64,000 nucleotides of DNA from Flavobacteriales bacterium (GTDB lineage: Bacteria; Bacteroidota; Bacteroidia; Flavobacteriales; BACL11): the NCBI GenBank assembly GCA_002705205.1, contig PAHP01000013.1, forward strand, positions 1 through 64,000, in the 5' to 3' direction. Shown here in pieces: positions 22,000 through 40,131 of this stretch (the first letter of the stretch is position 1; every line of letters begins with the position of its first letter). The position numbers and the translations under genes were made by a program. Under the pieces are notes generated by a model, which was not told the origin of the DNA, did no database searches, and saw only the letters and a list, made by a program, of their open reading frames with translations.

Positions 22000-22002
22000 A
22001 TT

Positions 22003-24348
22003 ATGCAAAATCAATTAGATGATATTATAGATTTTAGACAGTTTTTCTTCAAGGTAGTTAAAAACTGGTTTTTATTTTTTATTTCTCTTTTAGTTACTAT
22101 GGTTATTGCTTTTGCATATAATAGATACACCCATGAACTCTTTCGTGTTGAAACCTCAATATTAATTAAAGAAGAGAATAATATATCTTCTGCATCTGAC
22201 TTACTTTATGACAAAGGTCAATCAAATAAAAGGAGCTTAGAGAATCAAGAGTTATTAATTAAATCTTTTCCTAATGTTTTTAAGACTTTAGAAGATTTAA
22301 GATTTGATATTACATATTATATTGAAGGTAAGATTAAAGTTACAGAGACTTATACGTCACCAATAGTTGTTAAATGCGCTAATAGTAAAGGGCTTAATTC
22401 TCATAGTTTTAAGGTCCAAATAATTGATAGGAATCGTTTTTATTTAATAGACATAAATTCTAAGAAGGAATACGAAAGAAAGTTTAATGATACGTTTCTG
22501 TTTAATGATGTTGAGATGAGTATTGAATACAATACAAATTTTAAGTTTGATAAAGAAGTTGGATTACCAGTAACTATTGTAAAGTTTAATGATATTAGAT
22601 CTCTTGCGCAATCATATCAGAGTAAGATTGTTATTTCTCAAGAAGATAAAAAATCTACAGTAATGAATATTTCAATGCTTACTGAGGATCAATTAAAAGG
22701 GGTTGTATTTTTAAATAAATTAACTGAGAATTATATTAATAGTGAGATTAATGAGAAGAATATTGCTTCAATAAATACTGTGAGGTTTATAAATAATCAA
22801 TTAGTTGAGATGAGTGATTCTTTAGCTCTCATCGAGCAGAAGATAGAAGAGTATAAGAACAGTAATAAAATTACAGATCTAAGTTTAAAGGCACAGAGTA
22901 TATATACCAATATTGTTAATTTAGAAACAGAACTTGCTAAAAGTAAAACAATAAATAGTTATTATAACTATTTGTCTGAGTATCTTAATCAAGGAGAGAA
23001 TCTAGAAGGTGTATCAGTGCCTGCATCATTTGGGGTAAATGATGTATCTTTAAACTCGTTAATTAGTCAATTGATAGAGGCGCAAATCAAAAAGAACATG
23101 CTAATTTCCGGGGGTCAAATAAATAACCCTGCTATTTCACAATATAATAGAAAAAGTGATCAATTAATTCTTAATTTACAGGAGGCAATTAAGACAAGTA
23201 AATCAGCAAACAATTTGTTGTTATCTGATTATACTAATCGAATTGATAAGATGGAAAAGTCTCTGAGTGATATTCCTCATATTGAAAGAGAGCTTTTGAA
23301 TATAGAAAGGCTCCAATCAATTAGTGAGAATATTTATATATTCTTACTTCAGAAAAGAGCAGAGGCTAAGATTACTTCTTCCTCAAATATTTCAGATAGC
23401 AGAGTGCTTGAGCCTGCAATGTTTACTTATAAAAAACCAGTAAGCCCAGATAAGAGGAAGAGTTATGTACTAGCTTTACTTTTTGGCTTATTATTACCTA
23501 CTTTGTATCTTTTAATTTCTGAAATACTTAATGATACTATTGTTTTAAGATCAGACTTAGAAAGATTCTGTTCTATACCAATATTAGCAATTATAGGAAA
23601 GAATTATAGTGGTCACAACCTTCTTTCAGAGCAAAGTCCAAAATCTTCAGTTTTTGAAGGATTTCGAGCATTAAGATCAAACCTTAATTTTATTAATCTG
23701 AATAAAAAGAGCATGGTTTATCTGGTCACTTCATCAATTAGTGGTGAGGGGAAGACCTATATTGCTGAGAATCTAGCGATTGTTTATGCTAAGTCCGGAA
23801 AAAGAACTTTGCTTATAGGTGCTGATTTAAGGCGACCAAAGATTTATGCTGATTTTGGTTTTGATAATACTCTTGGGATCTCAAATCATTTGTTGTCTGA
23901 TAAATCTCTCTCTGAGGTTATCTTAGAATCAGAAATAGATGGTCTTGATATTTTAACTTCAGGGCCATTGCCGCAGAATCCTGCCGATGCTTTACTTACA
24001 GATAAATTTATTAAAATGATGGAGTATCTCAAAAATCAGTATGATATAATTATACTAGATACCCCTCCTTTAGGATTAGTTGCGGATGCTTTGACTCTTA
24101 TGAAATATTCTGATGTTAATTTATATGTAGTAAGACAGAATTACACGAAAAAAGGCTTACTTACTTATGTAAATGAAATGCAGAAGAAAGATAGATTAGG
24201 TGATCTGCATCTTGTTTTTAATGATATTAAAGAGGGTAGCGGTGCTTATGGCTATGGAGAAGGCTATGGCTATGGCTATGGCTATGGCTATGGTTATGGC
24301 AATAGTTATGGTTATTCACAAGGAGGTGAGTATTTTGAGAATGATTAA
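22003..24348 (+). CDS. Wzc-like tyrosine autokinase / chain-length co-polymerase
   Basis: A 781-residue inner-membrane protein. The N-terminal Wzz domain has a first helix at about 20-40. Periplasmic coiled coils fill about 250-440, and a second helix lies near 485-505. The cytoplasmic BY-kinase domain has Walker A SSISGEGKTY (about 577-586), Walker A' GADLRRPK (about 606) and Walker B IILDTPPLG (about 682). The tail is a Tyr/Gly cluster made of GY repeats (about 747-775), the usual site of trans-autophosphorylation. It controls polymer length and export together with the Wza-like lipoprotein upstream. The tail is encoded by a perfect hexanucleotide repeat. Confidence 0.92.
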   Translation: MQNQLDDIIDFRQFFFKVVKNWFLFFISLLVTMVIAFAYNRYTHELFRVETSILIKEENNISSASDLLYDKGQSNKRSLENQELLIKSFPNVFKTLEDLRFDITYYIEGKIKVTETYTSPIVVKCANSKGLNSHSFKVQIIDRNRFYLIDINSKKEYERKFNDTFLFNDVEMSIEYNTNFKFDKEVGLPVTIVKFNDIRSLAQSYQSKIVISQEDKKSTVMNISMLTEDQLKGVVFLNKLTENYINSEINEKNIASINTVRFINNQLVEMSDSLALIEQKIEEYKNSNKITDLSLKAQSIYTNIVNLETELAKSKTINSYYNYLSEYLNQGENLEGVSVPASFGVNDVSLNSLISQLIEAQIKKNMLISGGQINNPAISQYNRKSDQLILNLQEAIKTSKSANNLLLSDYTNRIDKMEKSLSDIPHIERELLNIERLQSISENIYIFLLQKRAEAKITSSSNISDSRVLEPAMFTYKKPVSPDKRKSYVLALLFGLLLPTLYLLISEILNDTIVLRSDLERFCSIPILAIIGKNYSGHNLLSEQSPKSSVFEGFRALRSNLNFINLNKKSMVYLVTSSISGEGKTYIAENLAIVYAKSGKRTLLIGADLRRPKIYADFGFDNTLGISNHLLSDKSLSEVILESEIDGLDILTSGPLPQNPADALLTDKFIKMMEYLKNQYDIIILDTPPLGLVADALTLMKYSDVNLYVVRQNYTKKGLLTYVNEMQKKDRLGDLHLVFNDIKEGSGAYGYGEGYGYGYGYGYGYGNSYGYSQGGEYFEND
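24262..24297 (+). repeat. Hexanucleotide tandem repeat (GGCTAT) encoding the Wzc tyrosine tail
   Basis: Five perfect GGCTAT copies followed by one GGTTAT, encoding consecutive Gly-Tyr pairs. A 6-bp unit keeps the frame when copies are gained or lost, so only the number of tyrosines would change. Confidence 0.9.
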
Positions 24349-24365
24349 GTGTAAAATCAAAAAGC

Positions 24366-25235
24366 ATGATTTATAATAAACCTAAAGTAATTGCAGAGAT
24401 TGGATGTAACCATAAAGGAAATATTGATATTGCTAAGCAATTATTGAAGGTTGCTGCTGATAGTGGAGTTAAAGTTGCAAAATTTCAAAAAAGAAATAAT
24501 AAGGAGTTACTTACAGAACAGCAGTATGGTTCTCCTCATCCGAATCCTATAAATTCATATGGAGATACTTATGGCGCACATAGAGAATTCTTAGAGTTTG
24601 ATCTTGCCCAGCATCAAGAATTAAAGGAATATGCTGAGAGTTTGAATCTTATTTATTCTACATCTGTTTGGGACATCACTTCTGCTAAGGAAATTATATG
24701 TCTTAATCCAGAACTTATAAAAGTTCCATCTGCTTGTAATAATCATTTTGACATGCTAAAAGTATTAAGAGATGAGTATAATGGTGAAGTTCATGTTTCT
24801 TTTGGAATGACAACTAAAAATGAGGAAGAAGATATTGTTGCATTCTTTGAAGAAAATGATCAAGCAAGAAGATTAGTGCTTTATTCTTGTACTTCTGGAT
24901 ATCCCGTTCCATTTAATAATATCTGTATGCTAGAGATTATTAGAATAAAAGAGAAGTTTCAGAATAGAGTTAAATCAATTGGTTTTTCTGGTCATCATTT
25001 AGGAATCGCAGTTGATATAGCTGCATATACTTTAGGAGCAGAATGGATTGAAAGACATTTTACTTTAGATAGAACTTGGAAAGGAACTGATCACTCTGCT
25101 TCCTTAGAACCAACAGGTCTTAGAAAATTATCTAGAGATTTAAAAGCTACATATCAAGCTCTTTCGTATAAGAAAGTAGAAATTTTAGATATTGAGAAAG
25201 TACAAAGAGAAAAACTTAAATTTAGAAAAAGATGA
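24366..25235 (+). CDS. neuB: Nonulosonic acid synthase, NeuB family, without SAF domain
   Basis: A TIM-barrel enzyme that condenses phosphoenolpyruvate with an N-acylmannosamine-type sugar, or its 6-phosphate, to form a sialic-acid-like nonulosonate. Family motifs are VIAEIGCNHKGNIDIAK, KFQKRN, IYSTSVWD, LIKVPSACNNHFDML, IGFSGHHLGIAVDIAAY, ERHFTLDRTWKGTDHSASL and the end LRKLSRDL. At 289 residues it stops where the C-terminal SAF (antifreeze-like) domain of typical 340-350 residue NeuB proteins would begin. The synthetase gene overlaps its stop by 4 nt (ATGA). The exact sugar is not determined by sequence. Confidence 0.85.
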   Translation: MIYNKPKVIAEIGCNHKGNIDIAKQLLKVAADSGVKVAKFQKRNNKELLTEQQYGSPHPNPINSYGDTYGAHREFLEFDLAQHQELKEYAESLNLIYSTSVWDITSAKEIICLNPELIKVPSACNNHFDMLKVLRDEYNGEVHVSFGMTTKNEEEDIVAFFEENDQARRLVLYSCTSGYPVPFNNICMLEIIRIKEKFQNRVKSIGFSGHHLGIAVDIAAYTLGAEWIERHFTLDRTWKGTDHSASLEPTGLRKLSRDLKATYQALSYKKVEILDIEKVQREKLKFRKR

Positions 25236-26374
25236 GTGTAATTGCATTTGTGCCTGCTAGAGGTGGTAGTAAATCAATTCCAGAGAAGAATATTCAATCT
25301 TTTTGTGGCAAGCCGCTTATTTATTGGAATCTACATGAACTTCAAAGGTCTGATGTAGACAAGATAGTAGTTGCTACTGATTCAGAGAGGATAAAATCAG
25401 TTGTAGAATCATTTAACTTTCCAAAGGTAATGGTTTATGATAGAGATCCTGAGAATTCTCAGGATACTTCTTCTACAGAGTCCGTGATGCTAGAATATAT
25501 TGATTATTCTAATTTATTAGATTCTGATGTGTTTATATTAGTACAGGTGACTTCCCCTTTTACTCAAGCTATTCATTTTAATGAGGGCTTAGAATTGTTT
25601 AAATCTCATGATTCAATACTTTCTTGTTGTGTTTCTAGAAGATTTATTTGGAGAGAAGATGGGAAGGCTTTGAATTATGATATTTATAATAGACCAAGAA
25701 GACAAGACCATAAAGGTCATCTAATTGAAAATGGTGCATTTTATATAAGTTCAGTTGCTAAGATTATAGAAAAAGAGACTAGAATTTCTGGTAATATTGG
25801 TCTTTATGAGATGCCTGAATATACATCTGTAGAGATTGATGAAGTAGAAGATTGGATTGTTGCTGAATCCTTAATGAAGAGGTTGGTTTTAGATCAGAGA
25901 GATCGAGACTTTTCAGATATTAAAATATTACTTTCTGATGTAGATGGGGTGCTTACAGATGCAGGTATGTATTACACAGAAGATGGAGATGAATTTAAGA
26001 AATTTTGCACTTATGATGGTATGGGAATGCAACTTCTACAGAATTATGGCATTAAAGTAGGAATACTTACTAGTGAAGATAAACAGTTAAATAGAAGAAG
26101 GGCTCAGAAGCTTAAATTAGATTTTGATTTTCATGGGGCTACAGATAAATTGCAAATTGTAAAAGATTTATGTAAAAGCGAGCACATTACATTAAATGAG
26201 GTTGCATATATTGGTGATGATGTGAATTGCTTTGAACTTTTATCTAATGTTGGTGTTGCTGCATGTCCTAGCAATGCTATGCAAAAAATCAAATCTATTC
26301 CAAATATAATACAACTAAGTAAAAAAGGAGGACAAGGTGTTGTACGAGAGTTAGTTGAATTAATTCTTCTATAA
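25232..26374 (+). CDS. neuA: CMP-nonulosonate synthetase fused to a HAD phosphatase
   Basis: 380 residues in two domains. Residues 1-215 are a CMP-sialic-acid-synthetase-type cytidylyltransferase (FVPARGGSKSIPEKNI, VATDSERI, LVQVTSPFT, GAFYISS). Residues about 225-380 are a KdsC-like HAD phosphatase with motif I LLSDVDGVLTD, motif II ILTSED, motif III Lys in GATDKLQ, and motif IV YIGDDVNC, all apparently catalytic. The same order occurs in animal CMAS. The activated sugar would feed a transferase later in the locus. A C3-type 9-phosphate removal by the HAD domain is possible. It overlaps both neighbours (4 nt and 1 nt). Confidence 0.85.
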   Translation: MSVIAFVPARGGSKSIPEKNIQSFCGKPLIYWNLHELQRSDVDKIVVATDSERIKSVVESFNFPKVMVYDRDPENSQDTSSTESVMLEYIDYSNLLDSDVFILVQVTSPFTQAIHFNEGLELFKSHDSILSCCVSRRFIWREDGKALNYDIYNRPRRQDHKGHLIENGAFYISSVAKIIEKETRISGNIGLYEMPEYTSVEIDEVEDWIVAESLMKRLVLDQRDRDFSDIKILLSDVDGVLTDAGMYYTEDGDEFKKFCTYDGMGMQLLQNYGIKVGILTSEDKQLNRRRAQKLKLDFDFHGATDKLQIVKDLCKSEHITLNEVAYIGDDVNCFELLSNVGVAACPSNAMQKIKSIPNIIQLSKKGGQGVVRELVELILL

Positions 26375-27771
26375 TGGATTTTAATTCTGATGATTTATTG
26401 GAATTGAAGAAGTATCTAGATGTGAATAGTATTCCAAAAGAAAAGATTTGTATTGTTGGATCTGCTACTTTATCATTAATTGGAATAAGAGAGCATAATG
26501 ATATAGATATTGTATTGCATTCTGATGTGTCTGCAAGATTATCATATCACCCATTTATCGATAGAGTTGATAAACCTTGGAGTACATTATTTTCTGATGA
26601 TATTTTAGTAGAAAATCCGGATTTCCATATAATTTTTAAAGGGTTTAAATTTGTGATACCTGAGCTTATTTATCATAGAAAATATTGGCATAATAGAATT
26701 AAAGATGCTAATGATATTTTAGAATTAAATGAATATGCAAAGATGCATAATGATTGGCAATGGGGGTTAATAAATAACTATCTCCCTAAAAAACATTTCC
26801 TTAAAAGATTTATAAAAAGATTTTTCAGTAAGCTAAGTTCCTATAGTAAATTAAAGAATTTTTTTTATAGTAATAATCCTATTCATCCTGATTGCTTTCA
26901 AGTTATTCCAACTAACTTTTTATTGTCTAAACAATATGTAAATAATCAATTTAATCGTTTTGATATTATTGTGAGATATAATGCGATTCATTCATATTTA
27001 AATGATGATAATTTAGGTATAGATGTATATAAAAGGATGCAGGAGCAAAGAGGTGGTTCTGTATATAAGAATCCTTGGAAGCACTTTAAGTTATTAATTG
27101 ACAATTATAGATCTGTAGGCTTTTCATCAGATTGCCCTGTCTTCGTTAACCATGATCTTCATATTATAGATGGAGCTCATAGATTAGCTTGTGCTTTATA
27201 TTTTAAGAGCCCTTTTGTTTATGTAAAAGTAAATCGTAATTCTGGTTATGCTAATTATGGTTTAGACTGGTTTAAGAAATTAAGTTTTACTACTGAAGAG
27301 ATTTTATTTTTATCAAAAAAGAAGCAAGATATTTTTACCGAGAACTTTCTGTACTTTCACGTTATTCTTTGGCCATCTGTTTCGAAATATTTTGACGAGA
27401 TATCTAATCATATTAATAATCAATATAGGATTCTTGAATCTAAAAAATTTAGTAGCATAAAAAACCTAAATATTTTCATAGAAAGACTATATAAGATTGA
27501 TGATATAAAGGATTGGAAGGTTAATATGAAGATAAAAGGATTGTCCTCTTATAAACAAGATATAAGAGTATTGAAAATAGATATTCCAGAGCCTGATTTT
27601 AGAAGAAAAATGAACGATAAATTAATTTCACAAAAGGTTGAGCGACTTAAGAGAGAAATTAGAGAGAAATACTCTAGTAAGATTAATAACTATTTTCATG
27701 ATATTATTATTCATATTGGAGATAACTATGAACATAGTAGGCAATCATCTAACTTAGAAATTGAAGTTTAA
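26374..27771 (+). CDS. Nucleotidyltransferase-like / ParB-like fusion protein of unknown function
   Basis: A 465-residue protein with no known full-length match that I recognise. The N-terminus (about 20-110) resembles a nucleotidyltransferase fold, with GSATLSLIGIREHNDIDIVL supplying the Gly-Ser and Asp-x-Asp pattern. A region around 255-290 has VNHDLHIIDGAHRLACAL, which resembles the DGxHR core of ParB/sulfiredoxin-type folds. The C-terminal 160 residues are charged, Lys-rich and unassigned, ending in IIHIGDNYEHSRQ. It sits between the CMP-sugar synthetase (1-nt overlap) and a GT-B protein, so it is probably a glycan assembly or phosphate-modifying enzyme. No membrane segment is seen. Confidence 0.55.
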   Translation: MDFNSDDLLELKKYLDVNSIPKEKICIVGSATLSLIGIREHNDIDIVLHSDVSARLSYHPFIDRVDKPWSTLFSDDILVENPDFHIIFKGFKFVIPELIYHRKYWHNRIKDANDILELNEYAKMHNDWQWGLINNYLPKKHFLKRFIKRFFSKLSSYSKLKNFFYSNNPIHPDCFQVIPTNFLLSKQYVNNQFNRFDIIVRYNAIHSYLNDDNLGIDVYKRMQEQRGGSVYKNPWKHFKLLIDNYRSVGFSSDCPVFVNHDLHIIDGAHRLACALYFKSPFVYVKVNRNSGYANYGLDWFKKLSFTTEEILFLSKKKQDIFTENFLYFHVILWPSVSKYFDEISNHINNQYRILESKKFSSIKNLNIFIERLYKIDDIKDWKVNMKIKGLSSYKQDIRVLKIDIPEPDFRRKMNDKLISQKVERLKREIREKYSSKINNYFHDIIIHIGDNYEHSRQSSNLEIEV

Positions 27772-27775
27772 GGAG

Positions 27776-28894
27776 ATGAATTTATTAAAGTCATGCTGGT
27801 TTTTCATGTGTGGTATTTTTATAAAAAGAGAATATGATGTTGTTTTTTATTATCCACAACATTTCAATAGAGGTAGTCAAGATGAAAACATGTATTTCAG
27901 TCATTTGATTAATGCATGCAAGCAAGAGGGGCGTTCATATACTGTTTTTGAGGAGCCTGATTTTTCTCTCAATTCAAATAGAAATAAGAATGCAACTCCA
28001 TTTGATTTTATATTTGTATTAATTATCTTACTAAGAAGAATGTTTAATTCTGAGATGGATGCTAGAACAAAAGATGTCAGAATTGGAGTTTTTTTGTCAA
28101 AAACATTCTTTAGGTGTATGAGCTTTAATAATGTAGTGACAATTTCACAAAGTATGGTTAGTATTTTTAGAGGTATTAATTCAAATTGTATAATATTTGA
28201 TGTCCAGCATGGTATTATACACCCAAATAAGAAAAATTATTTAATAGAAAAATATCCAGATAAGAATATTATATATAATAAAATGCAACTTTTATTAAGT
28301 GGAGATTCTTATAAGCAACTGATGATCGAAAATGATTACACAAAATATTTTAAGAATAATTCGCATGTTATTGGTAGTTATATTATTAGAGAGGATTTAA
28401 AGCATGACTCGTTTAATAGAAATATTTTAGTTTCATTACAATTTACACATGATCATTCTAATGCTGAAAATATTCTTCTTCTTCAAAATTTAGAGCAAGT
28501 AATCAATTCTAATGATGACGAAACAATCACTTTTTATCTAAAAGATCATCCTAGGTTTAATTTTGATGTTAATCTAACAGATCTATTGAGTTTAAAAAAT
28601 GTAAAACCTGCCCCTATTGACATTGATGATTGTTTTAAATTATGTAGTTTGCAAATAACAGCTTATTCAACCTTGGTATTTGAAGCTGCATTGAAAGGTA
28701 TACCAACTATATTAGTTAACCCACTTTCAAAATATGACTATTTTAATAAATATTTCTCATATCCGTTTTCTAATGAAATTATAGATTTCTCGGATAAATT
28801 ATTCTATAAAAAGAGCTCATTTATGGTACAAGAGTGGGCTTCATCGTATTATAGTGATTTTGATAAAGAAACCTTTATAGACTTGTTGAAATGA
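27776..28894 (+). CDS. GT-B-type glycosyl/phosphoryl-transferase, unassigned family
   Basis: 372 residues from the ATG at 27776. The TTG at 27761 used in the track lies inside the previous gene, and AAGGAG directly precedes the ATG. The C-terminal half has features of GT-B capsule enzymes: DVQHGIIHP (about 139-147), a KDHPRF segment resembling the HP motif of bacterial sialyltransferases and glycerophosphotransferases, and ITAYSTLVFEAALKGIPTIL resembling their Ser/Thr motif. It follows the CMP-nonulosonate module, so a CMP-sugar transferase is one option and a CDP-glycerol-type or KpsS-like transferase another. The next gene overlaps its stop by 4 nt. Confidence 0.6.
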   Translation: MNLLKSCWFFMCGIFIKREYDVVFYYPQHFNRGSQDENMYFSHLINACKQEGRSYTVFEEPDFSLNSNRNKNATPFDFIFVLIILLRRMFNSEMDARTKDVRIGVFLSKTFFRCMSFNNVVTISQSMVSIFRGINSNCIIFDVQHGIIHPNKKNYLIEKYPDKNIIYNKMQLLLSGDSYKQLMIENDYTKYFKNNSHVIGSYIIREDLKHDSFNRNILVSLQFTHDHSNAENILLLQNLEQVINSNDDETITFYLKDHPRFNFDVNLTDLLSLKNVKPAPIDIDDCFKLCSLQITAYSTLVFEAALKGIPTILVNPLSKYDYFNKYFSYPFSNEIIDFSDKLFYKKSSFMVQEWASSYYSDFDKETFIDLLK

Positions 28895-29928
28895 TAAAAA
28901 TAAAGATCTTTTTAGGGGCATATGTAAATTATATTAATGCGCAGAATATAAATTGTAAGGCTATTGCAAAACATTTAGATAAAGAAAGATTTGAGGTTTT
29001 GTCTCTTGCAAATTATTTTGGTAATGAGGATACTCCTGATGTAAAGATCTTTTATTGTTTTAAACCATTTAGTATTTCAAAACATATTGGATTCTTATGG
29101 GGTATATTAAATTGTGATATTGCTTATTTCCCAAAACATGTTGATACACCTGTATGGATTTTAAAACTAGCTAGACTATTTAAGAAGCCAGTCTTCTCTA
29201 CAATTGAAGGTAATGTGACAGATAAATCTTTACCAAACCTTATTGATTTATTTGGGTCAGAAAACAAGATTAAGAACCACTTTTCACTTATTAATAAGAT
29301 ATTTCCTATCACTACTTTCTTGCAGATTAATGCATCTAGCTTACTTCCAGTGCAAGAGAGTGTCTTACAGCTTGGTGTTGATATTAATCAGTTCTCAGTT
29401 TCTAAAAAATTAAAATTAGAATCCATTGTATTTGTTGGTAGTATTATTAAAAGAAAGCAGGTGCAAGAATTTATTCATTTAGCTCACACGTATCCTCAGC
29501 TATATTTTAATTTAATTGGTGATGGAGAGGAGAGAGAATCTTTAAAGAAAACGTCTCCCAAGAATATTATTTTTCATGGTTTATTATCACATAGTGAGAT
29601 TGATGAAATCTTTAATTGTTCTGATTTAATGTTCTTGCCTTCAAGATCAGAAGGCTTTCCAAAGGTTATCTTAGAAGCGGCTTCTGCAGGTATACCATCT
29701 ATTCTTTATGACTCCTACGGTGCCTCTGATTGGATGCAGCATTATAAAGATGGATTTATAGTTAATGATATTTCAGAGGTTAAGGCAGTAATTAATACAC
29801 TTATAGAAAGACCTTCCGTATTGAAAGAAACTTCAAGAAATGCAGTGAAGTTAGCTGAGAAGTTTAATTGGAGACTTGTGATTAAGAGTTGGGAGAAAGA
29901 AATTGAAGATTTGTATTATGGTAGATAA
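28891..29928 (+). CDS. Glycosyltransferase, family 4 (GT-B)
   Basis: A 345-residue cytoplasmic glycosyltransferase. The C-terminal nucleotide-sugar domain starts at IVFVGSIIKRKQV, contains LIGDGEERESL, the HGLLSHSEIDEIF loop and LPSRSEGFPKVILEAASAGIPSI, the E-x7-E region of the GT4 retaining fold. The N-terminal half is divergent, as usual for acceptor-binding domains. It is translationally coupled (ATGA overlap) to the GT-B gene upstream. Donor and linkage cannot be deduced. Confidence 0.85.
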   Translation: MIKIKIFLGAYVNYINAQNINCKAIAKHLDKERFEVLSLANYFGNEDTPDVKIFYCFKPFSISKHIGFLWGILNCDIAYFPKHVDTPVWILKLARLFKKPVFSTIEGNVTDKSLPNLIDLFGSENKIKNHFSLINKIFPITTFLQINASSLLPVQESVLQLGVDINQFSVSKKLKLESIVFVGSIIKRKQVQEFIHLAHTYPQLYFNLIGDGEERESLKKTSPKNIIFHGLLSHSEIDEIFNCSDLMFLPSRSEGFPKVILEAASAGIPSILYDSYGASDWMQHYKDGFIVNDISEVKAVINTLIERPSVLKETSRNAVKLAEKFNWRLVIKSWEKEIEDLYYGR

Positions 29929-31069
29929 TACGTATATAATTATTACACCTTATTTCCCTAGTAAAGAATGTTATATGGGAAGTTATGTATATGATCAGGC
30001 TAAAGCAATAAATAATACTCCAGCATATAAGGTTAGAATAATAAAGTTAGTTTCTTTTTTCTCAAAAGAGGAAGATTATATCTTCCAAGATTTTGATGTT
30101 AAGATATTTAAAGTGTTTGACTTACCATTTTTTATTCTTCCAGGTGTTTTTAATTTCTTTAATGCTATTAGATTTAGAGAATTTTTTAGGACTAACAGAT
30201 TATTAGAAAATTCCTCTGTAATTCATTCTCATGTTAGTTACCCATCAGCATATTTAGCTAATGCAATTGCATCAATTTTAGACACTAAGACAATTATTCA
30301 ACATCATGGAATTGACGCATTACAGCTTCTTAATGGAAGATTTAAATTGCTAAGAAGACTTCAACAAAGTTTTATTAAAAGAAGATCAATTAAACAACTT
30401 AATAAGATTGGATTGAGTGTATATGTTTCTAATAGGGTAAGGAATGAAATTCATTCTTATAATGCATATATTTCTAAGGATGAATATGTTTTATATAATG
30501 GCGTCGATAGAACTAAATTCTATAATACAGGTAAAAAAAAGAATAGTAATATTTACAAGATCGGATGTGTTGCTAATTTCTGGCCAATTAAAGATCAAAT
30601 ATCACTAATAAAAGCTGTACATCTATTAGTGAAGAGTGGTGTTAATGATATAAGGTTAAACCTTATTGGTTCTGGAAAAACCTTAGATAGTTGCAAAGAA
30701 TATGTTAAGTCTAATGTTCTAGATTTATATGTTTACTTTAAGGAAGAGATGCCTCATCATAAATTAAATGATTTTTATAACTCATTAGATTTATTTGTGC
30801 TCCCATCATATTATGAGGCCTTAGGCTGTGTGTTTCTAGAAGCTTGGGCTACAGATATACCTATAATTGCTGTTAGAAATCAAGGAATTTCTGAGTTAAT
30901 TCCAGAAGATGAGGTAAATAATTTATTGTCTGAAGAAAGAAATCCAGAATCATTAAAAGAAAAGATCTTAGCAGAATATAAGAAGAGAAGATCATATGAA
31001 TTTGATTCTAAATATGATATTAAGAATACTATTTCAGAATTTCTAAAACTCCCATTCTTTAATGATTAA
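29918..31069 (+). CDS. Glycosyltransferase, family 4 (GT-B)
   Basis: 383 residues from the ATG at 29918 (MVDNTYIIITPYFPS); the track start at a TTG (29903) adds residues from within the previous gene. The N-terminal Rossmann domain has the typical YDQAKAI helix and IHSHVSYPSAYLA, then IIQHHGIDA. The C-terminal domain has YNGVDRTKFY, IGCVANFWPIKDQISLIKA, LIGSGKTL and LPSYYEALGCVFLEAWATDIPIIA, the donor-binding E-x7-E segment. One of four GT4 enzymes in the locus, probably adding one sugar each to the lipid-linked repeat unit. It overlaps both neighbours. Confidence 0.88.
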   Translation: MVDNTYIIITPYFPSKECYMGSYVYDQAKAINNTPAYKVRIIKLVSFFSKEEDYIFQDFDVKIFKVFDLPFFILPGVFNFFNAIRFREFFRTNRLLENSSVIHSHVSYPSAYLANAIASILDTKTIIQHHGIDALQLLNGRFKLLRRLQQSFIKRRSIKQLNKIGLSVYVSNRVRNEIHSYNAYISKDEYVLYNGVDRTKFYNTGKKKNSNIYKIGCVANFWPIKDQISLIKAVHLLVKSGVNDIRLNLIGSGKTLDSCKEYVKSNVLDLYVYFKEEMPHHKLNDFYNSLDLFVLPSYYEALGCVFLEAWATDIPIIAVRNQGISELIPEDEVNNLLSEERNPESLKEKILAEYKKRRSYEFDSKYDIKNTISEFLKLPFFND

Positions 31070-31673
31070 TAGCAAAATATTAGACATAATAATAGCAAAT
31101 GATATTCCATTTGCTGTAATTGATGGTAAATATAATATTGAGTCCTATGATGATGAGGCGCAGTGTTTTTTACCTGATTTGGATATAGTATTAAAATCTG
31201 ATTCAGCAGGTATAATTGATGATATTAGGAATAATAAGGAGTTTAAATCATTAGAGCTCCTTTCATTCAAAGAAAAAGAAACAAATACTAGAGTTGATTT
31301 ATATCTCAATTCACTAAATGTAGGTTACTATCACTTTTTAAATATTGATGAGAACTCATTTGTAAACCATAGAGTTTCAGAAGAGGAGTATATAATTTAT
31401 CAGTTAATAGATCCATTATTAAAATTTTCAAAATACCTACCTAGGCATAAATATCGATTGCAGAAGTATTTTGCTGAAGGGATACCAGAAAATATTTTTT
31501 ACAAGTTGCAGAGAATCATTGGATATAATCTTACTTCCATATTATTAGATCAAATATTGAAAGGGAAATTTAGTGTCTCACAATTATTTATTAGAAGATG
31601 CAAAATCAATATTCTATTTATAAATGGTAACTTTGTAAGAATGATAAAAAAAAGATTACTAGATCATGTGTAA
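31062..31673 (+). CDS. Small nucleotidyltransferase-like protein
   Basis: A 203-residue protein. The first 60 residues have a nucleotidyltransferase-like pattern (IPFAVIDG followed by LPDLDIVLKSD, the latter giving Asp-x-Asp), and RVDLYLNSL could supply a third acidic strand. The rest is helical and basic. It overlaps a following HPr-kinase-like gene by 8 nt. Nucleotidyltransferase-fold genes beside HprK-related kinases occur in several bacterial biosynthetic loci, which supports the assignment, but no substrate is known. A degenerate or non-catalytic domain is possible because the Gly-Ser loop is weak. Confidence 0.5.
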   Translation: MINSKILDIIIANDIPFAVIDGKYNIESYDDEAQCFLPDLDIVLKSDSAGIIDDIRNNKEFKSLELLSFKEKETNTRVDLYLNSLNVGYYHFLNIDENSFVNHRVSEEEYIIYQLIDPLLKFSKYLPRHKYRLQKYFAEGIPENIFYKLQRIIGYNLTSILLDQILKGKFSVSQLFIRRCKINILFINGNFVRMIKKRLLDHV

Positions 31674-32766
31674 CTATAGACATCATAATTCTGCATTTTC
31701 AATATCTACTTCTTGTATTAAGAATAGAAGCTTAAAAAGAAAGGTAGATTTTGCTATTAAAGATGTATTTAAGGGATTCTTGTTAAGTGAAACGGAGGAA
31801 GTGGTAATAGAATTTATTTTTACTGATGAAATAGATAATTTTATTATAGATGATCAATGTATGAGGGTTAAGGATATTAAGGTCAGTAATCTTCAAACAC
31901 ATTTTAAAGATAATGAGCTGGAATTCTTAGTAAACAATGAGAATATATTTAAAGTATATATTAATGTTTCTAATAATGAAAGTTTTAAATCTTCAGTAAG
32001 ATTTTTTAATAAATCATTTAAGAATAAGATTGAGCAACAGATAACGACATTCTATTATCGTATTTTCTTACTTTTCTCTCAGCTTTGGAATATTAAAAAT
32101 GATCTTTCATACTTGCATTCTTCATCAGTTGAAATTAGTGGAGAGTCAATTGTTTTTACTGCAGATTCAGGTGTAGGTAAAAGTTCGTTATTATTTAGAC
32201 TATCTGAGGAGAAGGCTGTTAGCTTTATTGCTGATGATCTAACAATCCTTTCTTCAGAATCAGAAGTGTTTTATCAAGGGAGAAGCTTAAGTGTGAAACC
32301 TTATCATTTAAGATACTTTAGTTTTTTAGAAGATAAATTAAAAAAAATAATGCTTAGAGGGCAAAAATTTCAGTGGAAGCTTATAAATGATAATAGGCTA
32401 ACATACCGTATTACTCCAAATCATTTATTTGATAATATTGTTACATCAAGCAAAATAAAAAGAGTTATTCACCTCTGTAATCATTCAGATAGAGACTTTA
32501 AAATTTCTGAGATTTCCTGTAAAGATTTGGTGAAGTATACAAACTCTATTTTGATAAATGAGTTGTATTTAGCAAACAGTAAGCTTAATGCAGTTGCCTC
32601 ATTACCTAATTCACCATTTATTTATTCATCTGAGCTGTACAATAAGGTCTCTCAGATTTACTTAAAAGCATTTGATAATATTGAGATAATATTAGTTCTG
32701 GTTCCTTTTATGTCAGATCCCAACGAATTATATGAATTCTTAAAAACTGAAGGATGCTTAGATTAA
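31666..32766 (+). CDS. HPr-kinase/phosphorylase-like protein (HprK-related)
   Basis: A 366-residue protein. The C-terminal half carries the HPr-kinase-type P-loop: LHSSSVEISG, then FTADSGVGKSSLLFRL (about 164-179) and the second-strand motif FIADDLTIL (about 186-194), equivalent to the GDSGIGKS ... ADD pattern of HprK. No HPr or PTS gene is near, and the N-terminal 150 residues are unrelated to HprK. The HprK-related kinases known outside PTS regulation phosphorylate small molecules or peptides in biosynthetic loci. Its substrate here is unknown. It overlaps the small nucleotidyltransferase gene (8 nt) and the flippase gene (13 nt). Confidence 0.72.
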   Translation: MCNYRHHNSAFSISTSCIKNRSLKRKVDFAIKDVFKGFLLSETEEVVIEFIFTDEIDNFIIDDQCMRVKDIKVSNLQTHFKDNELEFLVNNENIFKVYINVSNNESFKSSVRFFNKSFKNKIEQQITTFYYRIFLLFSQLWNIKNDLSYLHSSSVEISGESIVFTADSGVGKSSLLFRLSEEKAVSFIADDLTILSSESEVFYQGRSLSVKPYHLRYFSFLEDKLKKIMLRGQKFQWKLINDNRLTYRITPNHLFDNIVTSSKIKRVIHLCNHSDRDFKISEISCKDLVKYTNSILINELYLANSKLNAVASLPNSPFIYSSELYNKVSQIYLKAFDNIEIILVLVPFMSDPNELYEFLKTEGCLD

Positions 32767-34199
32767 TTATTAGACAAGCAAATTGGGGTATATTGGGGGC
32801 ATTATTCGGATTTTTAATTGGATTTTTTGTAAAGATTTACCTCATTGATATTGTAGGTCTTCCGGCTTGGGGGAAATATGTAACTGCTCAAACATTTAGT
32901 TCAATGTCTGAGACCTTTTTATCTATTGGAATCCCTTTTGTAATAATTAAATTCATACCTTCATTTGTTAGTGTTAATAAAGAAAAAGCTAGTAGGATTG
33001 CTAATATATTTATTAGATATGCTTTAATTGTCGGTGGGGTTTTTCTAGTGCTTATTTATTTCAGTTCTGATTATATTAATAGTTTTATTTATAGCGATAT
33101 AGATGATCTAAGTTGGATTTTATTTGTTATGTGTATACATGTGCCAATTAGTATGCTTTTTGGTGTTATCGTTTCATTGTATCGCTCTATATTAAAAATA
33201 AAGGAAATTGTATTGTATGGTACATTTATTACTGTTTCATTAAGGGCAATATTAACTGTTATTATATTCCAATACACATCAGATATAAGTCATTTTATCA
33301 TGATAGAGGTTGTTACTCAAATTATTGTATTATCTGTTTTGCTGTATTTATTTAACAAGAATGAGTTCTCATTATTTGTTAAATCAGATATAAAAGAAGT
33401 TACTAGTGATACAAGAATTATTGCTTATGGTAAAAAGATGTTTTATAATTCAGTAGTGACTTTTATTTCAGCTCAGGCTCTTAGTTTTATTATTAGTATT
33501 ACATTACCAATTCAGGATGTGGGTGCCTATAATATATTATTAACCCTTACAGGTTTAACAACATTTTTATTAGTAAACTTAAATAAAGTATTTGCTCCAG
33601 CAATTTCTAAACTTTTCTATGAGAATAAAATTTCAGCATTAAATAAATTATATAAAAAAACTACTTTCTTTATTAATCTTCTCACTATTCCTTTGGTGAT
33701 AATAATAGCAATTTTTGCTGATGAGATCTTAGGGCTTTATACTTCTGAAATGCTTAATTATAGAGAGTATTTATTTTTTATGCTTGCTGCTGGGATGCTG
33801 TCATTAGCGGCAGGTAGTTCAGGTACTTTTATGGTCATGGCAGGGTTGGAAAAACAAAACTTATATATACAAATCATTAGATCAATTTTACTAGTTACTC
33901 TTTCATTAATACTTATACCTGAATTTGGCTTATTCAGTGTTGTTATTCTGTATGTTGTTTTTATGTTGTTTGTAAATTTGTTTCAAGTTATCTATATCTC
34001 AAAATATATTAATATCTCTCCTTTCTCAAAGGAATTGATTATACTATTTTTTCTGACTATTTTTGGTATGTATTTTGCTATATCACAGCAATTTGAGTTT
34101 GAGGTATATCATTATTTTATTATTCCAATCAGTATTTATGTATTATATTTTTCAATTATGTATTATCCTTTTAAGAAGATAGTTAAAGAAATATTTTAA
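32754..34199 (+). CDS. Wzx-type flippase (polysaccharide transporter family)
   Basis: A 481-residue inner-membrane protein with about 12-14 transmembrane helices spread over its whole length. The N-terminus (LRLIIRQANWGILGALFGFLIG) and the ETFLSIGIPFVIIKFIP loop resemble MOP-superfamily O-antigen flippases. Its expected task is to move the undecaprenyl-linked repeat unit to the periplasmic face for Wzy. The start overlaps the HprK-like gene by 13 nt and its TAA overlaps the next ATG by one base. Confidence 0.88.
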   Translation: MLRLIIRQANWGILGALFGFLIGFFVKIYLIDIVGLPAWGKYVTAQTFSSMSETFLSIGIPFVIIKFIPSFVSVNKEKASRIANIFIRYALIVGGVFLVLIYFSSDYINSFIYSDIDDLSWILFVMCIHVPISMLFGVIVSLYRSILKIKEIVLYGTFITVSLRAILTVIIFQYTSDISHFIMIEVVTQIIVLSVLLYLFNKNEFSLFVKSDIKEVTSDTRIIAYGKKMFYNSVVTFISAQALSFIISITLPIQDVGAYNILLTLTGLTTFLLVNLNKVFAPAISKLFYENKISALNKLYKKTTFFINLLTIPLVIIIAIFADEILGLYTSEMLNYREYLFFMLAAGMLSLAAGSSGTFMVMAGLEKQNLYIQIIRSILLVTLSLILIPEFGLFSVVILYVVFMLFVNLFQVIYISKYINISPFSKELIILFFLTIFGMYFAISQQFEFEVYHYFIIPISIYVLYFSIMYYPFKKIVKEIF

Positions 34200-35047
34200 T
34201 GAGATATACATTTGTATCATTAGGAAGATTAGAGAGCTTGGGAGTTCGTTTGGGTGGTGCTGGATTAGGTAACATTCTATTTCCATGGGCGAGAGCTATT
34301 CTTTATGCAAAAAGAAATAATTTACAGAGGATTCAGACAACATGGAGGACACTAAAAATTGGTACTTTTCTGAGGTGTGAAAGAGATAAAAGAATGTATT
34401 TTGATTTATTTACTGGTAAAGATGGGATAAGTGGTATTAAAAAGTTTCTATTACTTAATTTTTCTAATAAAGTAAAGATATTCTCTGGAATGGATGGCCT
34501 ATTTGCGCCATTTAAAAATGAACATGCTTTTATTAAGTCAGAGCTATTTAAGATAATAAACCCTTCTCATATAAACAAAGTAAGTGGGTTCAATAAGAAG
34601 TCGATAGGTATTCATATAAGAATGGGTGACTTTGAGGTCCCTCAGGATGAGCAGATATTAAGGGATGGGAACTGGAATTATCGACTGCCAATAAAATGGT
34701 ATGTTGCAATTATTGAGCAGATCAGATTAATTAGCAACTTGCCTATTTGTATTTTCTCAGATGCTTCTGATCAAGAACTCGAAGATATCTTAACTATTAG
34801 TAATTGTAGAAGGGCTTATTTTGGTTCTGCCATTTCAGATGTCATTGCATTAAGTCGCTGTAAAGTTTTAGTTTCTTCTGCAAGTACATTTAGTATGTGG
34901 GCTTCATTTTTAGGTCAAATGCCAACAATTTGGTTTCCTGGTCAGTTGCGTCAGAAGCTAATTATTGATCATAATATTTTTGAAGGCGAAATTGATTATA
35001 CTGATAAGCTTCCCGCTACTATAATTAAAACTATAGCTAATGCTTAG
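34199..35047 (+). CDS. GT11-like (alpha-1,2-fucosyltransferase family) glycosyltransferase
   Basis: A 282-residue protein. The N-terminal GGAGLGNILFPWARA corresponds to the GLGNQLFQYA block of GT11 enzymes. The central IGIHIRMGDFEVP corresponds to the donor-binding H-x-R-x-G-D motif. ICIFSDASDQEL and SSASTFSMWASFLGQMP match the later conserved strands. The donor is normally GDP-fucose, but this sequence is divergent enough that another deoxysugar is possible. No GDP-fucose synthesis gene is present in the window. It overlaps the flippase by one base and Wzy by 8 nt. Confidence 0.72.
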   Translation: MRYTFVSLGRLESLGVRLGGAGLGNILFPWARAILYAKRNNLQRIQTTWRTLKIGTFLRCERDKRMYFDLFTGKDGISGIKKFLLLNFSNKVKIFSGMDGLFAPFKNEHAFIKSELFKIINPSHINKVSGFNKKSIGIHIRMGDFEVPQDEQILRDGNWNYRLPIKWYVAIIEQIRLISNLPICIFSDASDQELEDILTISNCRRAYFGSAISDVIALSRCKVLVSSASTFSMWASFLGQMPTIWFPGQLRQKLIIDHNIFEGEIDYTDKLPATIIKTIANA

Positions 35048-36176
35048 ATGGCTTTTTAAATATGCTGCAGCAGTTTTTATTTTCAATACAATATTATTGT
35101 CTATTGAGGTGACAATGAAGATTGGGAATCTAATCTTTTTTGGGTTAATGGCTTTATATAGTATAGCGTTATTAATTAATCCCAATCAGATGAGAAAGAT
35201 TATTTTTCATAAGTCTTTTTATTTTTTGTTGATCATTAATATATTAAATATAATTTATTTTTTCTTATTCCATTCTATTGCTGATATTGAGGCTGTAAAA
35301 TACTTATTAGCCAGAGCTGTGAAGTTTGCAATTATTTCAGGATCTATTTATTTTCACCTAGATTATTATAAGATAAAGTTTCTTGATCATATTATATATT
35401 TAACCTTATTTATTATTTCTATTAGCTTAATATTAGATCCTAATATATTCATAGGGAGATATAGTGGTATTATTTGGAATCCTAATATGTTGTCTTCTCT
35501 TGTTACAATATCCTTCGCAATTTTATTTCTTAAATATAAGAATTATGATAAAGTTAATATTTTTCTTCTTATTTTATTCCTTGCGATTTCTTTAGCAACA
35601 GGTTCAAGAGGTTCACTAGTAGGTATATTGCTAGTTTTCTTATTTAAATATAGTTTTTCAAGAAGGAATATTTTCTATGCAATATTAGCTATTGCTGCTA
35701 TTTTTATTATTTCAAACATTCAGCTTTCAACTAGTATTAATAGGTTCTCAGATCAATCATTATTTAACGATAGAATTCTCCAATATGAATATGCTTTTAA
35801 ATCAATTTATAGTAAGTTATATACAGGATATGGTCTTGATAAATATTCTTATATAGATAAAAGCCTAGTTCCTATATTTTTAAAAGGTAAAATTATAGGA
35901 GCTCACAATGCCTATTTAGCCATATTAACTCAATATGGGATAGTTTTTGGAAGTTTAGTGCTTTATATCATATTTCAGAAGTCTTATAGTGCTATTTTAT
36001 TCTTCCGAAATTCATCAGGTAATGAAAAGGTTTATTTATTTATTATTATTTACACGTTAATTGCTTCAATATATGAAACGCTTATTACAGGAGTTAATGA
36101 ATTCCAAACATCTCTTTTCTGGTTTTCATTAGCGATATTGTCATATTCTAAATACAAAATAGAAAATGCAAATTAA
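35040..36176 (+). CDS. Wzy-type polysaccharide polymerase (O-antigen ligase/polymerase superfamily)
   Basis: A 378-residue inner-membrane protein with about 10-12 hydrophobic helices. Between them is a larger periplasmic loop that carries the Wzy_C-type motif TGSRGSLVGILLV near residues 190-202. The later region YTGYGLDKYSY and GAHNAYLAILTQYGIVFG matches the conserved H-N-x-x-L-x-x-x-x-x-x-G pattern of O-antigen polymerases. In a Wzx/Wzy system it polymerises the repeat unit, under length control by the Wzc-like kinase upstream. A ligase function is the alternative. Confidence 0.85.
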   Translation: MLRWLFKYAAAVFIFNTILLSIEVTMKIGNLIFFGLMALYSIALLINPNQMRKIIFHKSFYFLLIINILNIIYFFLFHSIADIEAVKYLLARAVKFAIISGSIYFHLDYYKIKFLDHIIYLTLFIISISLILDPNIFIGRYSGIIWNPNMLSSLVTISFAILFLKYKNYDKVNIFLLILFLAISLATGSRGSLVGILLVFLFKYSFSRRNIFYAILAIAAIFIISNIQLSTSINRFSDQSLFNDRILQYEYAFKSIYSKLYTGYGLDKYSYIDKSLVPIFLKGKIIGAHNAYLAILTQYGIVFGSLVLYIIFQKSYSAILFFRNSSGNEKVYLFIIIYTLIASIYETLITGVNEFQTSLFWFSLAILSYSKYKIENAN

Positions 36177-37206
36177 GATATTTAATAATATAGAAGATTT
36201 TCTGCTCATCAAAGATGATTGGGATAGGTTATTTGCCAGTGGAAATTATAGTGTTTTTCAAGAGTTTCATTTTAATTATCTCTCCTGGAAGCATGAGTTA
36301 ATAACTGATAGTCGAAATCAATTAGCTATTACTGTTAGTATAGTAGATAACCATATCTCATCAATATTCCCATTTTATCTTGATTCTAATAAGAGATTAA
36401 GATTTATTAATGATCAACATTTTGATTTTTGTGACTGTATTTCTAATGATGCGATTAATTTTTTAGAAGTCTATAATTATTTAAGAAATGAGATCACTTT
36501 TAAATCAATGAGATTAATAAATATAAAGAAAACCGCATTTATTTATAAGGCAGTAGATGAGGTGAACATAAAGAATAAAGCTTTTTTACCTATATCAGAG
36601 TATTCAGAACTAAATGTAGATCAAGGAGATTTCCCTTATAACGTCCCTCATTATCGATCTCATCAGAAGCACAGAATTAATAAGGCTATCCGCAAGAATT
36701 CATTAAATGAATCTATAGTTCTAACAAAAAATAATAATTGTTTTCCAAAGAAAGATATCTTACTGTTAAAGGATAAAATGATTAATTCTGGCATTAGAAA
36801 AAAGAACTTTCTAAATAATAATAGATTATTGTTAATAGAAGATTTATATAATTTGGGTATTGTGACTTTGCATGTGATGAGAGATAAGGAAGGATTTAAT
36901 TCTGTAAATATTTTGCTTAATGAATCGTCTAATAGTTTTATTTTCTGGATTGATGTTTTTGATGAGAAACAGATGATTAATCTTAGTTCTTATTGTAATG
37001 TTATTAGATCTTCTTCATCTATTGGATCAATAAATATAAATTTCGGTAGAGGTAGGTATTTTTATAAAGAATCAAATTTTGCTCCAGAATTTCATACGTT
37101 GTATCAGGTCCTTTTATTTTCTAGTAGCTTGCAGAAGCTGTCATTTTTTATTTCGTATAACTTAAGGAGAAAACTAATGTTAGTTTATAAAATAATAAAA
37201 AAATGA
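36166..37206 (+). CDS. CelD/FemAB-like (BioF2-like) acyltransferase
   Basis: A 346-residue cytoplasmic protein resembling GNAT-fold acyltransferases of the CelD/BcsL group found in polysaccharide loci. The N-terminal lobe contains FQEFHFNYLSWKHEL. The second GNAT lobe contains NILLNESSNSFIFWIDVFDE, then SININFGRGRYFYKESNFAP, where the FGRG-Y-K-F pattern is a family landmark. It may acetylate or otherwise acylate a sugar or a nucleotide sugar. It overlaps Wzy by 11 nt and the next glycosyltransferase by 4 nt. Confidence 0.68.
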   Translation: MQIKIFNNIEDFLLIKDDWDRLFASGNYSVFQEFHFNYLSWKHELITDSRNQLAITVSIVDNHISSIFPFYLDSNKRLRFINDQHFDFCDCISNDAINFLEVYNYLRNEITFKSMRLINIKKTAFIYKAVDEVNIKNKAFLPISEYSELNVDQGDFPYNVPHYRSHQKHRINKAIRKNSLNESIVLTKNNNCFPKKDILLLKDKMINSGIRKKNFLNNNRLLLIEDLYNLGIVTLHVMRDKEGFNSVNILLNESSNSFIFWIDVFDEKQMINLSSYCNVIRSSSSIGSININFGRGRYFYKESNFAPEFHTLYQVLLFSSSLQKLSFFISYNLRRKLMLVYKIIKK

Positions 37207-38258
37207 AAGTATTTTGTTATTTTGTTGAGCCAGCATCATATACGCTAGATCTAGCCAATCATATTTATGATGATCTGCGTATAGAGTACTGTTTTATTAA
37301 ATCAGAAACTTTAGCGCGCTCTAGCAAGAGATCTAAGAAGCCTTTTCTTGATAAGATGTCATTATTTAGCAGGGTTTTATTTATATTCTCACAATATAGA
37401 AAAAATGATTTTATAATAATTAATGGATATAATAATTATCCTTTTGTTCTTACATTTATCTTAAATTTATTTTCTTTTAGAAAAAGGTTTATTGCATCTG
37501 ATTCTGACACCCAATTGAGAATCCCTACTAGTCTCTTCAAGAGGTTCATTAAATGGTTTTATTTATCAATAATCTTCAAGAATAAATATGTGTTGGGTTT
37601 TGCTGGAGGAAGTAACTCACATAAAGATTTATTTAGAAATTATGGTATGAACGAGGAGCGGATTTTTTTAATGCCATTGATGGTTGATAATAGAAAGTTT
37701 TTACAAGAAGACAAGCGATTTCCCAAAATCTTTACTTTTTTGTATGTTGGCAGACTAGTAAAGCATAAGAATGTGGAGGGCTTAATTCAACAATTTAACG
37801 CCCGTTTTATAGATGAGCCTGCTGTATTAAGAATTGTTGGTAGTGGTGATAGAGAAGAGTATTTGGAGGATAGATATTCATCTTCTAAAGTTATTTTTAC
37901 AGGAAAGAAGTTTAATAGTGATTTAGAAACAGAATTCCAGAATGCTAGTTGTTTTGTTTGTCCATCTGCATTTGAACCGTGGGGGCTGGTTGTAAATGAA
38001 GCACTGTCTTCTTCGTTACCTGTAATAGCTACTAATAAGGTAGGTGCCTCTTTTGATTTAATTAAAGATAAGAATACGGGTTTTGTTGTAGATAATATGA
38101 ATGATTTTGGAAATAGAATGCTCGAGCTTTATAATGATTCTGATTTACTATTAGAATATGCTGAAAATGCATGTACATTAATGAAAGATCATTGGAATTA
38201 TGATTTTTATCATAAATGCTTAATTACTGCAATTAAAAAGGTAAAGAAATGTCAATAA
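37203..38258 (+). CDS. Glycosyltransferase, family 4 (GT-B)
   Basis: A 351-residue cytoplasmic glycosyltransferase. Its short, divergent N-terminal domain (YFVEPASYTLDLANH) precedes a clear C-terminal GT4 domain: FLYVGRLVKHKNVEGLIQQF, RIVGSGDREEYLE and VCPSAFEPWGLVVNEALSSSLPVIA, whose FEPWGLVVNEAL segment is the E-x7-E donor site. The overall form resembles rhamnosyl- or glucosyl-transferases of capsule loci, but neither donor nor acceptor can be stated. It shares 4 nt with the gene before and 10 nt with the gene after. Confidence 0.87.
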   Translation: MKVFCYFVEPASYTLDLANHIYDDLRIEYCFIKSETLARSSKRSKKPFLDKMSLFSRVLFIFSQYRKNDFIIINGYNNYPFVLTFILNLFSFRKRFIASDSDTQLRIPTSLFKRFIKWFYLSIIFKNKYVLGFAGGSNSHKDLFRNYGMNEERIFLMPLMVDNRKFLQEDKRFPKIFTFLYVGRLVKHKNVEGLIQQFNARFIDEPAVLRIVGSGDREEYLEDRYSSSKVIFTGKKFNSDLETEFQNASCFVCPSAFEPWGLVVNEALSSSLPVIATNKVGASFDLIKDKNTGFVVDNMNDFGNRMLELYNDSDLLLEYAENACTLMKDHWNYDFYHKCLITAIKKVKKCQ

Positions 38259-38980
38259 TTTCACTTTTTAGGATTTTAATTATCAGAGTTTCTTCTTTTT
38301 TTTATATTAGTAGAAGAAGTAAAGTGATTTTTTACCATGATATTCATTCAAACACTAAGTATACTGATATGTCAACGCCTGTTGATCTTTTTAAGAAACA
38401 TATTCAGATGATTCGAGAGGATGGATATGAGATTGTTTCCGAGATTACTCAACTAAAAGGACAGATTGAAATATCGTTTGATGATGCTTTTTTAGGATTG
38501 TATGATAATATTGAATTAATAAAAGAATTAAATATTCCTGTTCGTTTATTTGTTATTTCTTCTTATTTGGATAAGGCGGGTCATATAAATAGGAAGCAGC
38601 TTATAGAATTAAATCAATTACCACAAATAATAGTTGCCTCACACACTCACTCACATCAAACTCTCGCTAAGATGGATTTAGATGAGATTAAATTTGAGTT
38701 AAAAAGCTCAAAAGATCAGTTAGAAAGAATATTGGCTTCCAAAGTTGATTCTATCTGTTTTCCTGAAGGAAATTTTAATAGAGCTTCTGTTTTCTTGTCA
38801 GAAGCGGTAGGATATGTTAAGATTTACTCTTCATTGCCAGGTTTTTATTATGATGATTTTATAGGAGTGAAAAAGAGGAGTTTGGTGCAATTTGCACAAG
38901 AAAGAGAATTTAAGGCTATTTTAAAAGGTGGAGATCACTGTTTGTTGTTCTGGTATAAAAGAAAACATTATAATAAATGA
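38249..38980 (+). CDS. Polysaccharide deacetylase (NodB homology domain)
   Basis: A 243-residue protein. The metal-site motifs of carbohydrate esterase family 4 are visible: ISFDDAFLG (MT1, with the Asp-Asp pair) and IIVASHTHSHQTL (MT2, H-x-x-x-H). SICFPEGNF replaces the RxPxG of MT3. An N-terminal hydrophobic segment (about 1-22) may anchor it in the membrane. It would remove an N- or O-acetyl group from the glycan or its lipid-linked precursor. It overlaps the glycosyltransferases on both sides. Confidence 0.82.
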   Translation: MSIISLFRILIIRVSSFFYISRRSKVIFYHDIHSNTKYTDMSTPVDLFKKHIQMIREDGYEIVSEITQLKGQIEISFDDAFLGLYDNIELIKELNIPVRLFVISSYLDKAGHINRKQLIELNQLPQIIVASHTHSHQTLAKMDLDEIKFELKSSKDQLERILASKVDSICFPEGNFNRASVFLSEAVGYVKIYSSLPGFYYDDFIGVKKRSLVQFAQEREFKAILKGGDHCLLFWYKRKHYNK

Positions 38981-40128: not shown

Positions 40129-40131
40129 TAG

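Follow-up and report, generated by a model that had tools for sequence, protein, structure and literature searches.

A kinase with the HprK/PEPCK fold and a nucleotidyltransferase-like partner exchange with a sulfotransferase gene in capsule operons of Flavobacteriales

What might a kinase with the P-loop of HPr kinase phosphorylate when it is encoded within a capsule operon? This question is raised by two genes of a Flavobacteriales bacterium (assembly GCA_002705205.1, contig PAHP01000013.1, positions 1-64,000; GTDB Bacteroidota, Flavobacteriales, BACL11). We refer to the whole 64,000-nucleotide stretch as the window; the genome from which it comes is 1.2 Mb in size and 73% complete. An earlier note on this DNA had described two overlapping genes at 31062-32766, encoding proteins of 203 and 366 residues, and had placed them between glycosyltransferases and Wzx in a capsule locus. 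Both open reading frames were confirmed, and the Pfam matches agree with the placement (Table 1). Up to and including Wzx, the operon encodes, in order, Wza, Wzc, NeuB, NeuA-HAD, a 465-aa protein, ORF377, two GT4 glycosyltransferases, the nucleotidyltransferase-like protein (NTase), the kinase and Wzx; after Wzx come GT11, Wzy, ORF346, GT4, a deacetylase, GT4, a carbamoyltransferase, a methyltransferase and GT2. The NTase gene overlaps the preceding GT4b gene by 8 bases and the kinase gene by a further 8, and the kinase gene overlaps wzx by 13; these overlaps suggest that the genes may be translationally coupled. (Note that promoter-like sites near the GT4b-Wzx interval showed no excess over background.)

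Table 1. Coordinates of the kinase-NTase pair, its neighbors and the related loci discussed in the text (positions are those of the window unless a locus is named).
Feature	Position	Strand	Basis
Capsule operon containing the kinase-NTase pair (Wza, Wzc, NeuB, NeuA-HAD, GTs, Wzx, Wzy, tailoring genes)	21136..43357	+	
465-aa protein, nucleotidyltransferase-like start (GS...NDID) and DGAHR	26374..27771	+	Synteny, alignment, weak NTP_transf_2 in 2/5 members
GT4b glycosyltransferase, left border of exchange slot	29903..31069	+	Pfam, synteny, breakpoint
203-aa protein, probable nucleotidyltransferase fold	31062..31673	+	ORF, conserved DxD (D39, D41) and third Asp (D79), fold, weak in-register NTP_transf_5 match
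366-aa HprK/PEPCK-fold kinase	31666..32766	+	ORF, H151, P-loop 165-174, D190-D191, fold, sequence match to solved HprK
Wzx flippase, right border of exchange slot	32754..34199	+	Pfam, synteny, breakpoint
GT11-family glycosyltransferase	34199..35047	+	Pfam, synteny
Copies of the 465-aa protein	window 26374-27771; L012 5762-7153; L014 2899-4314; L060 1091-2488; L075 10898-12295		
HprK_rel_A-like kinase/NTP_transf_5 loci	L017 7040-13900; L018 10304-14941; L038 4553-9300		

Both sequence features that had been attributed to the 366-residue protein, a P-loop (TADSGVGKSS) and an ADD strand, are indeed present. When the window kinase is aligned with four homologues, each 48-57% identical to it, H151, ADSG[V/I]GKS, D190 and D191 are invariant, so that the loss of P-loop and Asp residues in homologues, raised earlier as a way in which the idea could fail, did not occur. 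In a sequence alignment the His, Lys and Asp-Asp coincide with those of solved HprK, and an AlphaFold model (pLDDT 82) matched PEPCK (E 7.7e-8) and HprK (E 4.4e-6) in the PDB. Beyond the P-loop, the His and Asp-Asp positions and the fold, however, the likeness to HPr kinase/phosphorylase (HprK/P) ends. The protein scored below the cut-offs of PF07475 (22.9 bits against 33.3), TIGR00679 (23.6 against 240) and HprK-related kinase A, TIGR04352 (16.4 against 200), and the N-terminal HprK domain was unmatched in Pfam. The EIRG-G signature of HprK, present in two HprKs of the same phylum, was missing from all five capsule kinases in a motif check. Moreover, in the kinase phylogeny that the earlier note had proposed, the capsule kinases form a single clade (100/100) well apart from HprK, and consistent with the statement that the kinase has no HPr partner, there was no match to HPr (PF00381) in its own genome, which is 73% complete. 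Thus the description "HPr-kinase-like" is right with respect to fold and active site and wrong with respect to membership of the HPr kinases, for which signature, scores and tree all speak against it.

For its 203-residue neighbor the picture is less sharp. D39, D41 and D79 are invariant, as DxD...D, in the five sequences, and in a structural model D39/D41 and D79 sit on strands 39-44 and 77-82; the glycine that follows the first strand is conserved in four of the five. The best PDB fold matches of this model (pLDDT 80) are nucleotidyltransferase-superfamily proteins, JHP933 and MenT1 among them, with marginal E-values (2.5e-3 at best) and low TM-scores. A sequence search against the PDB returned nothing, and none of the five family members has a match to PF14907 or any meaningful Pfam match. 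A profile comparison with NTP_transf_5 (PF14907) gave a weak match, with a probability of 14%, that is in register at KG...DxD. Beyond its own family, only two weak, stop-containing matches were found in 395 genomes of the class. We assign a nucleotidyltransferase fold to this protein with moderate confidence.

Among 198 related genomes, the complete kinase occurs in five, all of one family (G000, G033, G047, G013 and G003), and a C-terminal piece of it lies at a contig end in a sixth (G004). The NTase was found in exactly the five genomes with a complete kinase. In all five, that is, in the window and in four other genera, the order is GT4b-NTase-kinase-Wzx, and in all five the kinase gene overlaps wzx. 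(The contigs with homologous loci are labelled as Flavobacteriales MAGs.) That four other genera have the identical gene order argues against a chance reading. The neighborhood survey that had been called for thus found the pair not at random but always in one slot, between GT4b and Wzx.

We then asked what this slot holds elsewhere. Homologues of Wzx are present in 26 of the 198 genomes; all 26 loci were read, and the capsule operon is largely collinear among them. Five slots contain the pair and one contains the contig-cut kinase; 18 contain a sulfotransferase of the Sulfotransfer_2 family and two (G048 and G035) are empty. In none of the 26 loci do pair and sulfotransferase occur together in the slot (Fisher test across loci, p = 4e-4, with relatedness ignored). 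The slot sulfotransferases are about 222 aa in length; five were scanned and all scored above the Pfam cut-off for Sulfotransfer_2. Seven that were aligned keep PKTAG and RNP...R, which we take to be the motifs expected for PAPS binding. (Note that in G106 an ORF346-like gene is also present in the slot, alongside a sulfotransferase of about 222 aa.)

The sharpest comparison is between G047 and G046, which belong to the same genus. Here a 9.7 kb stretch of 86.7% DNA identity runs as far as the GT4b stop codon, and a second stretch, 81% identical over 5.4 kb, begins at the start of Wzx; between the two breakpoints lie the 1.7 kb pair in G047 and a 0.66 kb sulfotransferase in G046. Pair and sulfotransferase have therefore been exchanged cleanly as genes. 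(The G046 Wzx, L077 5448-6663, contains several stops in the assembly, which may reflect sequencing error or decay.) In a Wzx tree made for counting swaps, in which few inner branches are well supported, the pair loci are nested in a clade that also holds the sulfotransferase loci G005, G002 and G016, which argues that flippase type alone does not determine slot content. GT11 follows Wzx in five of six pair-type loci as opposed to one of 17 readable sulfotransferase-type loci, again with relatedness ignored. Since GT11 tends to accompany the pair, the repeat unit or backbone may differ between the two types, and the substituents need not share one residue. We also entertained the idea that the pair is present because PAPS synthesis was lost. 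This was rejected: APS kinase is present in 30 of 34 genomes, the window's included, and the window's genome holds seven other Sulfotransfer_1 matches. The retention of APS kinase and of other sulfotransferases argues against any such simple cause.

Occupation of a common slot is not proof of equivalent function, and the two occupants are unrelated proteins that would draw on different donors, PAPS in the one case and ATP or another NTP in the other. What they have in common is the operon position and, presumably, an anionic decoration as the outcome. On balance we favor the view that the pair decorates the glycan of a Wzx/Wzy-assembled capsule and, at one site, takes the place of a carbohydrate sulfotransferase. 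The earlier note had left the target as a glycan, a lipid carrier or a protein; the exchange with a sulfotransferase lends support to the glycan and makes the other two less likely. In a marine Vibrio whose capsule is sulfated, the capsule cluster contains sulfotransferase genes (PMC11641403). For the pair there is a precedent: in the biosynthesis of the lasso peptide pseudomycoidin, PsmK phosphorylates a serine and PsmN attaches a hexose to the phosphate (PMC9266682, PMC8498205). PsmK and PsmN, together with PadeK/ThcoK (paeninodin), resemble the window pair in combining a kinase that has the HprK-like His-Lys-Asp-Asp set with a nucleotidyltransferase-like partner that elaborates the phosphate (PMC9266682, PMC8498205). 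Unlike them, the window pair lies in a capsule operon and is swapped with a sulfotransferase; no lasso precursor, B or C gene was present among the operon proteins scanned with Pfam, which are products of polysaccharide genes. A partnership of HprK-like kinase and nucleotidyltransferase was already known, and the capsule pair would be a new form of it.

With this precedent in mind, we infer what the substrate is (a glycan), what the product is, and that the kinase and the NTase work one after the other. The pair would act at the cytoplasmic face, once GT4b has done its work and while the lipid-linked repeat unit still awaits flipping by Wzx. By means of the P-loop K172, the D190-D191 metal site and H151, the kinase would transfer phosphate from ATP to a sugar hydroxyl; the nucleotidyltransferase would extend this phosphate with a nucleotidyl or sugar group, so that the substituent becomes a phosphodiester. 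In the capsule, a phosphate-type anionic group would then occupy the place that sulfate has in relatives; in most of the other loci, the slot enzyme would sulfate the repeat unit before export by Wzx. The order of the two steps, with the kinase first and the nucleotidyltransferase second, is tentative, and we regard it as somewhat doubtful.

The strongest alternative is that the two proteins belong to an activated-donor pathway, in which the kinase acts on a free small molecule (an alcohol or a sugar), and the nucleotidyltransferase either synthesizes a nucleotide-activated donor or transfers from one, in the style of LicA/LicC/LicD and phosphocholine. A kinase with a nucleotidyltransferase is the usual pair for activated-donor synthesis, the capsule would still gain a phosphodiester substituent, and, as far as the end result goes, replacement of a sulfotransferase would be explained just as well. 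The swap between G047 and G046, however, brings in two genes only, which leaves no separate transferase unless the NTase is itself the transferase, and HprK-fold kinases of known target act on a serine of a protein or peptide rather than on small alcohols (PMC9266682). We consider this alternative unlikely.

That same preference for serine, shared by HPr kinase and the lasso-peptide kinases (PMC9266682), would suit a regulatory protein kinase that targets Wzc, Wzx, a glycosyltransferase or the NTase and thereby controls export or chain length, with the NTase perhaps sharing its target. The overlap of the kinase gene with wzx in five of five loci would suit it too. No HPr match was found in the genome (73% complete), however, and the fact that the pair is swapped for a sulfotransferase, or for nothing, while Wzc, Wzx and Wzy are retained fits a decorating function better than a regulatory one. 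A regulatory role therefore seems to us quite improbable. Still less probable, and very unlikely in our view, is a role in initiation, in which phosphorylation of the lipid carrier or of the first sugar by the kinase would allow assembly to begin. The kinase gene does lie next to that of the flippase, and no initiating sugar-phosphate transferase was recognized among the operon proteins scanned, but the sulfotransferase-type loci likewise lack one in the parts that were read, which places initiation elsewhere in both types, and a sulfotransferase could not replace such a kinase. Least likely of all is a passenger pair, such as a toxin-antitoxin or defense module in a variable operon position: JHP933 and MenT1 do appear among the fold matches of the NTase, and small nucleotidyltransferases include toxins of the MenT and AbiE types, but PADLOC gave no match, no viral or plasmid homologue was found, and the constant slot, the coupled frames in five genera and the exact swap with a biosynthetic gene all argue against it.

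Returning to the decoration module that we favor, we find that its kinase has relatives beyond the five genomes. A profile of the five kinases detected a distant homologue in G497 (E 2e-16), and a profile that included the G497 kinase detected eight further kinases (E <1e-28) in other families of the phylum. As a raw count, eight of the nine distant kinases (at L037, L108-L113 and L115; about 370 aa in length and from several other Bacteroidota families) adjoin a GT4 enzyme and/or a Wzx-type protein, without an NTase; the ninth, in G812, has a glycosyltransferase a few kb away. The distant Wzx-associated kinases share with the window kinase the invariant H, GK and DD and the glycosyltransferase or flippase neighbors, but they are only 15-22% identical to it and have no NTase partner. 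The NTase thus appears to be dispensable for this wider group, of which we know of no characterized member.

A second type of pair points in another direction. Three Flavobacteriales genomes encode an NTP_transf_5 protein together with an HprK_rel_A-like kinase directly after a large secreted protein that bears a type IX sorting tail; this suggests a different target. Like the window pair, the HprK-related kinase A (TIGR04352) and NTP_transf_5 (PF14907) proteins form a kinase-nucleotidyltransferase gene pair, and the kinases share a fold (profile match, 98%). They differ in that the window kinase reaches 16 bits where the TIGR04352 cut-off is 200, in that the window NTase is far shorter and has no Pfam match, and in that the capsule kinases form a separate clade.

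It is quite possible, although we hold this with less assurance than the role of the pair itself, that HprK-fold kinases make up an unrecognized class of polysaccharide kinases in Bacteroidota, and that marine Flavobacteriales swap the module and the sulfotransferase, switching between sulfate-based and phosphate-based decoration. To our knowledge, kinases that phosphorylate capsule or O-antigen glycans directly are few and come from other folds. A literature search for "HprK-related kinase" returned nothing, and for HPr kinase with exopolysaccharide, flippase or capsule none of the matches listed was relevant. If the proposal is correct, an HprK-fold enzyme would be a glycan kinase, and many "HPr kinase" labels on proteins encoded beside glycosyltransferases or flippases would be wrong. 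The slot would present a natural allelic swap of sulfate for phosphate chemistry, with one gene exchanged for two, and this would bear on how marine capsules are recognized by phages, grazers and polysaccharide-degrading enzymes.

A second slot of the operon, between NeuA-HAD and ORF377, shows a similar alternation. Most relatives have a Sulfotransfer_1 protein there, and the 465-aa protein is found instead in G000, G013, G003, G005 and G048. A sequence search of this protein against the PDB gave nothing, and a weak NTP_transf_2 match was obtained for two of its five members; to us its DGAHR motif recalls kinases of the ParB/sulfiredoxin type. If these assignments are right, there would be two positions in the operon at which modules combining nucleotidyltransferase-like and kinase-like parts replace sulfotransferases.

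Two repeats in the window were also observed. The Wzc gene has a hexanucleotide repeat at its 3' end (24247-24315), which encodes a Tyr/Gly-rich tail of the autokinase. At 46312-46426, a 21-base repeat in 5.5 near-perfect copies (97% matches) falls within the opening part of LptD (43918-46497, minus strand) and gives rise to a repeated 7-residue stretch near the N-terminus.
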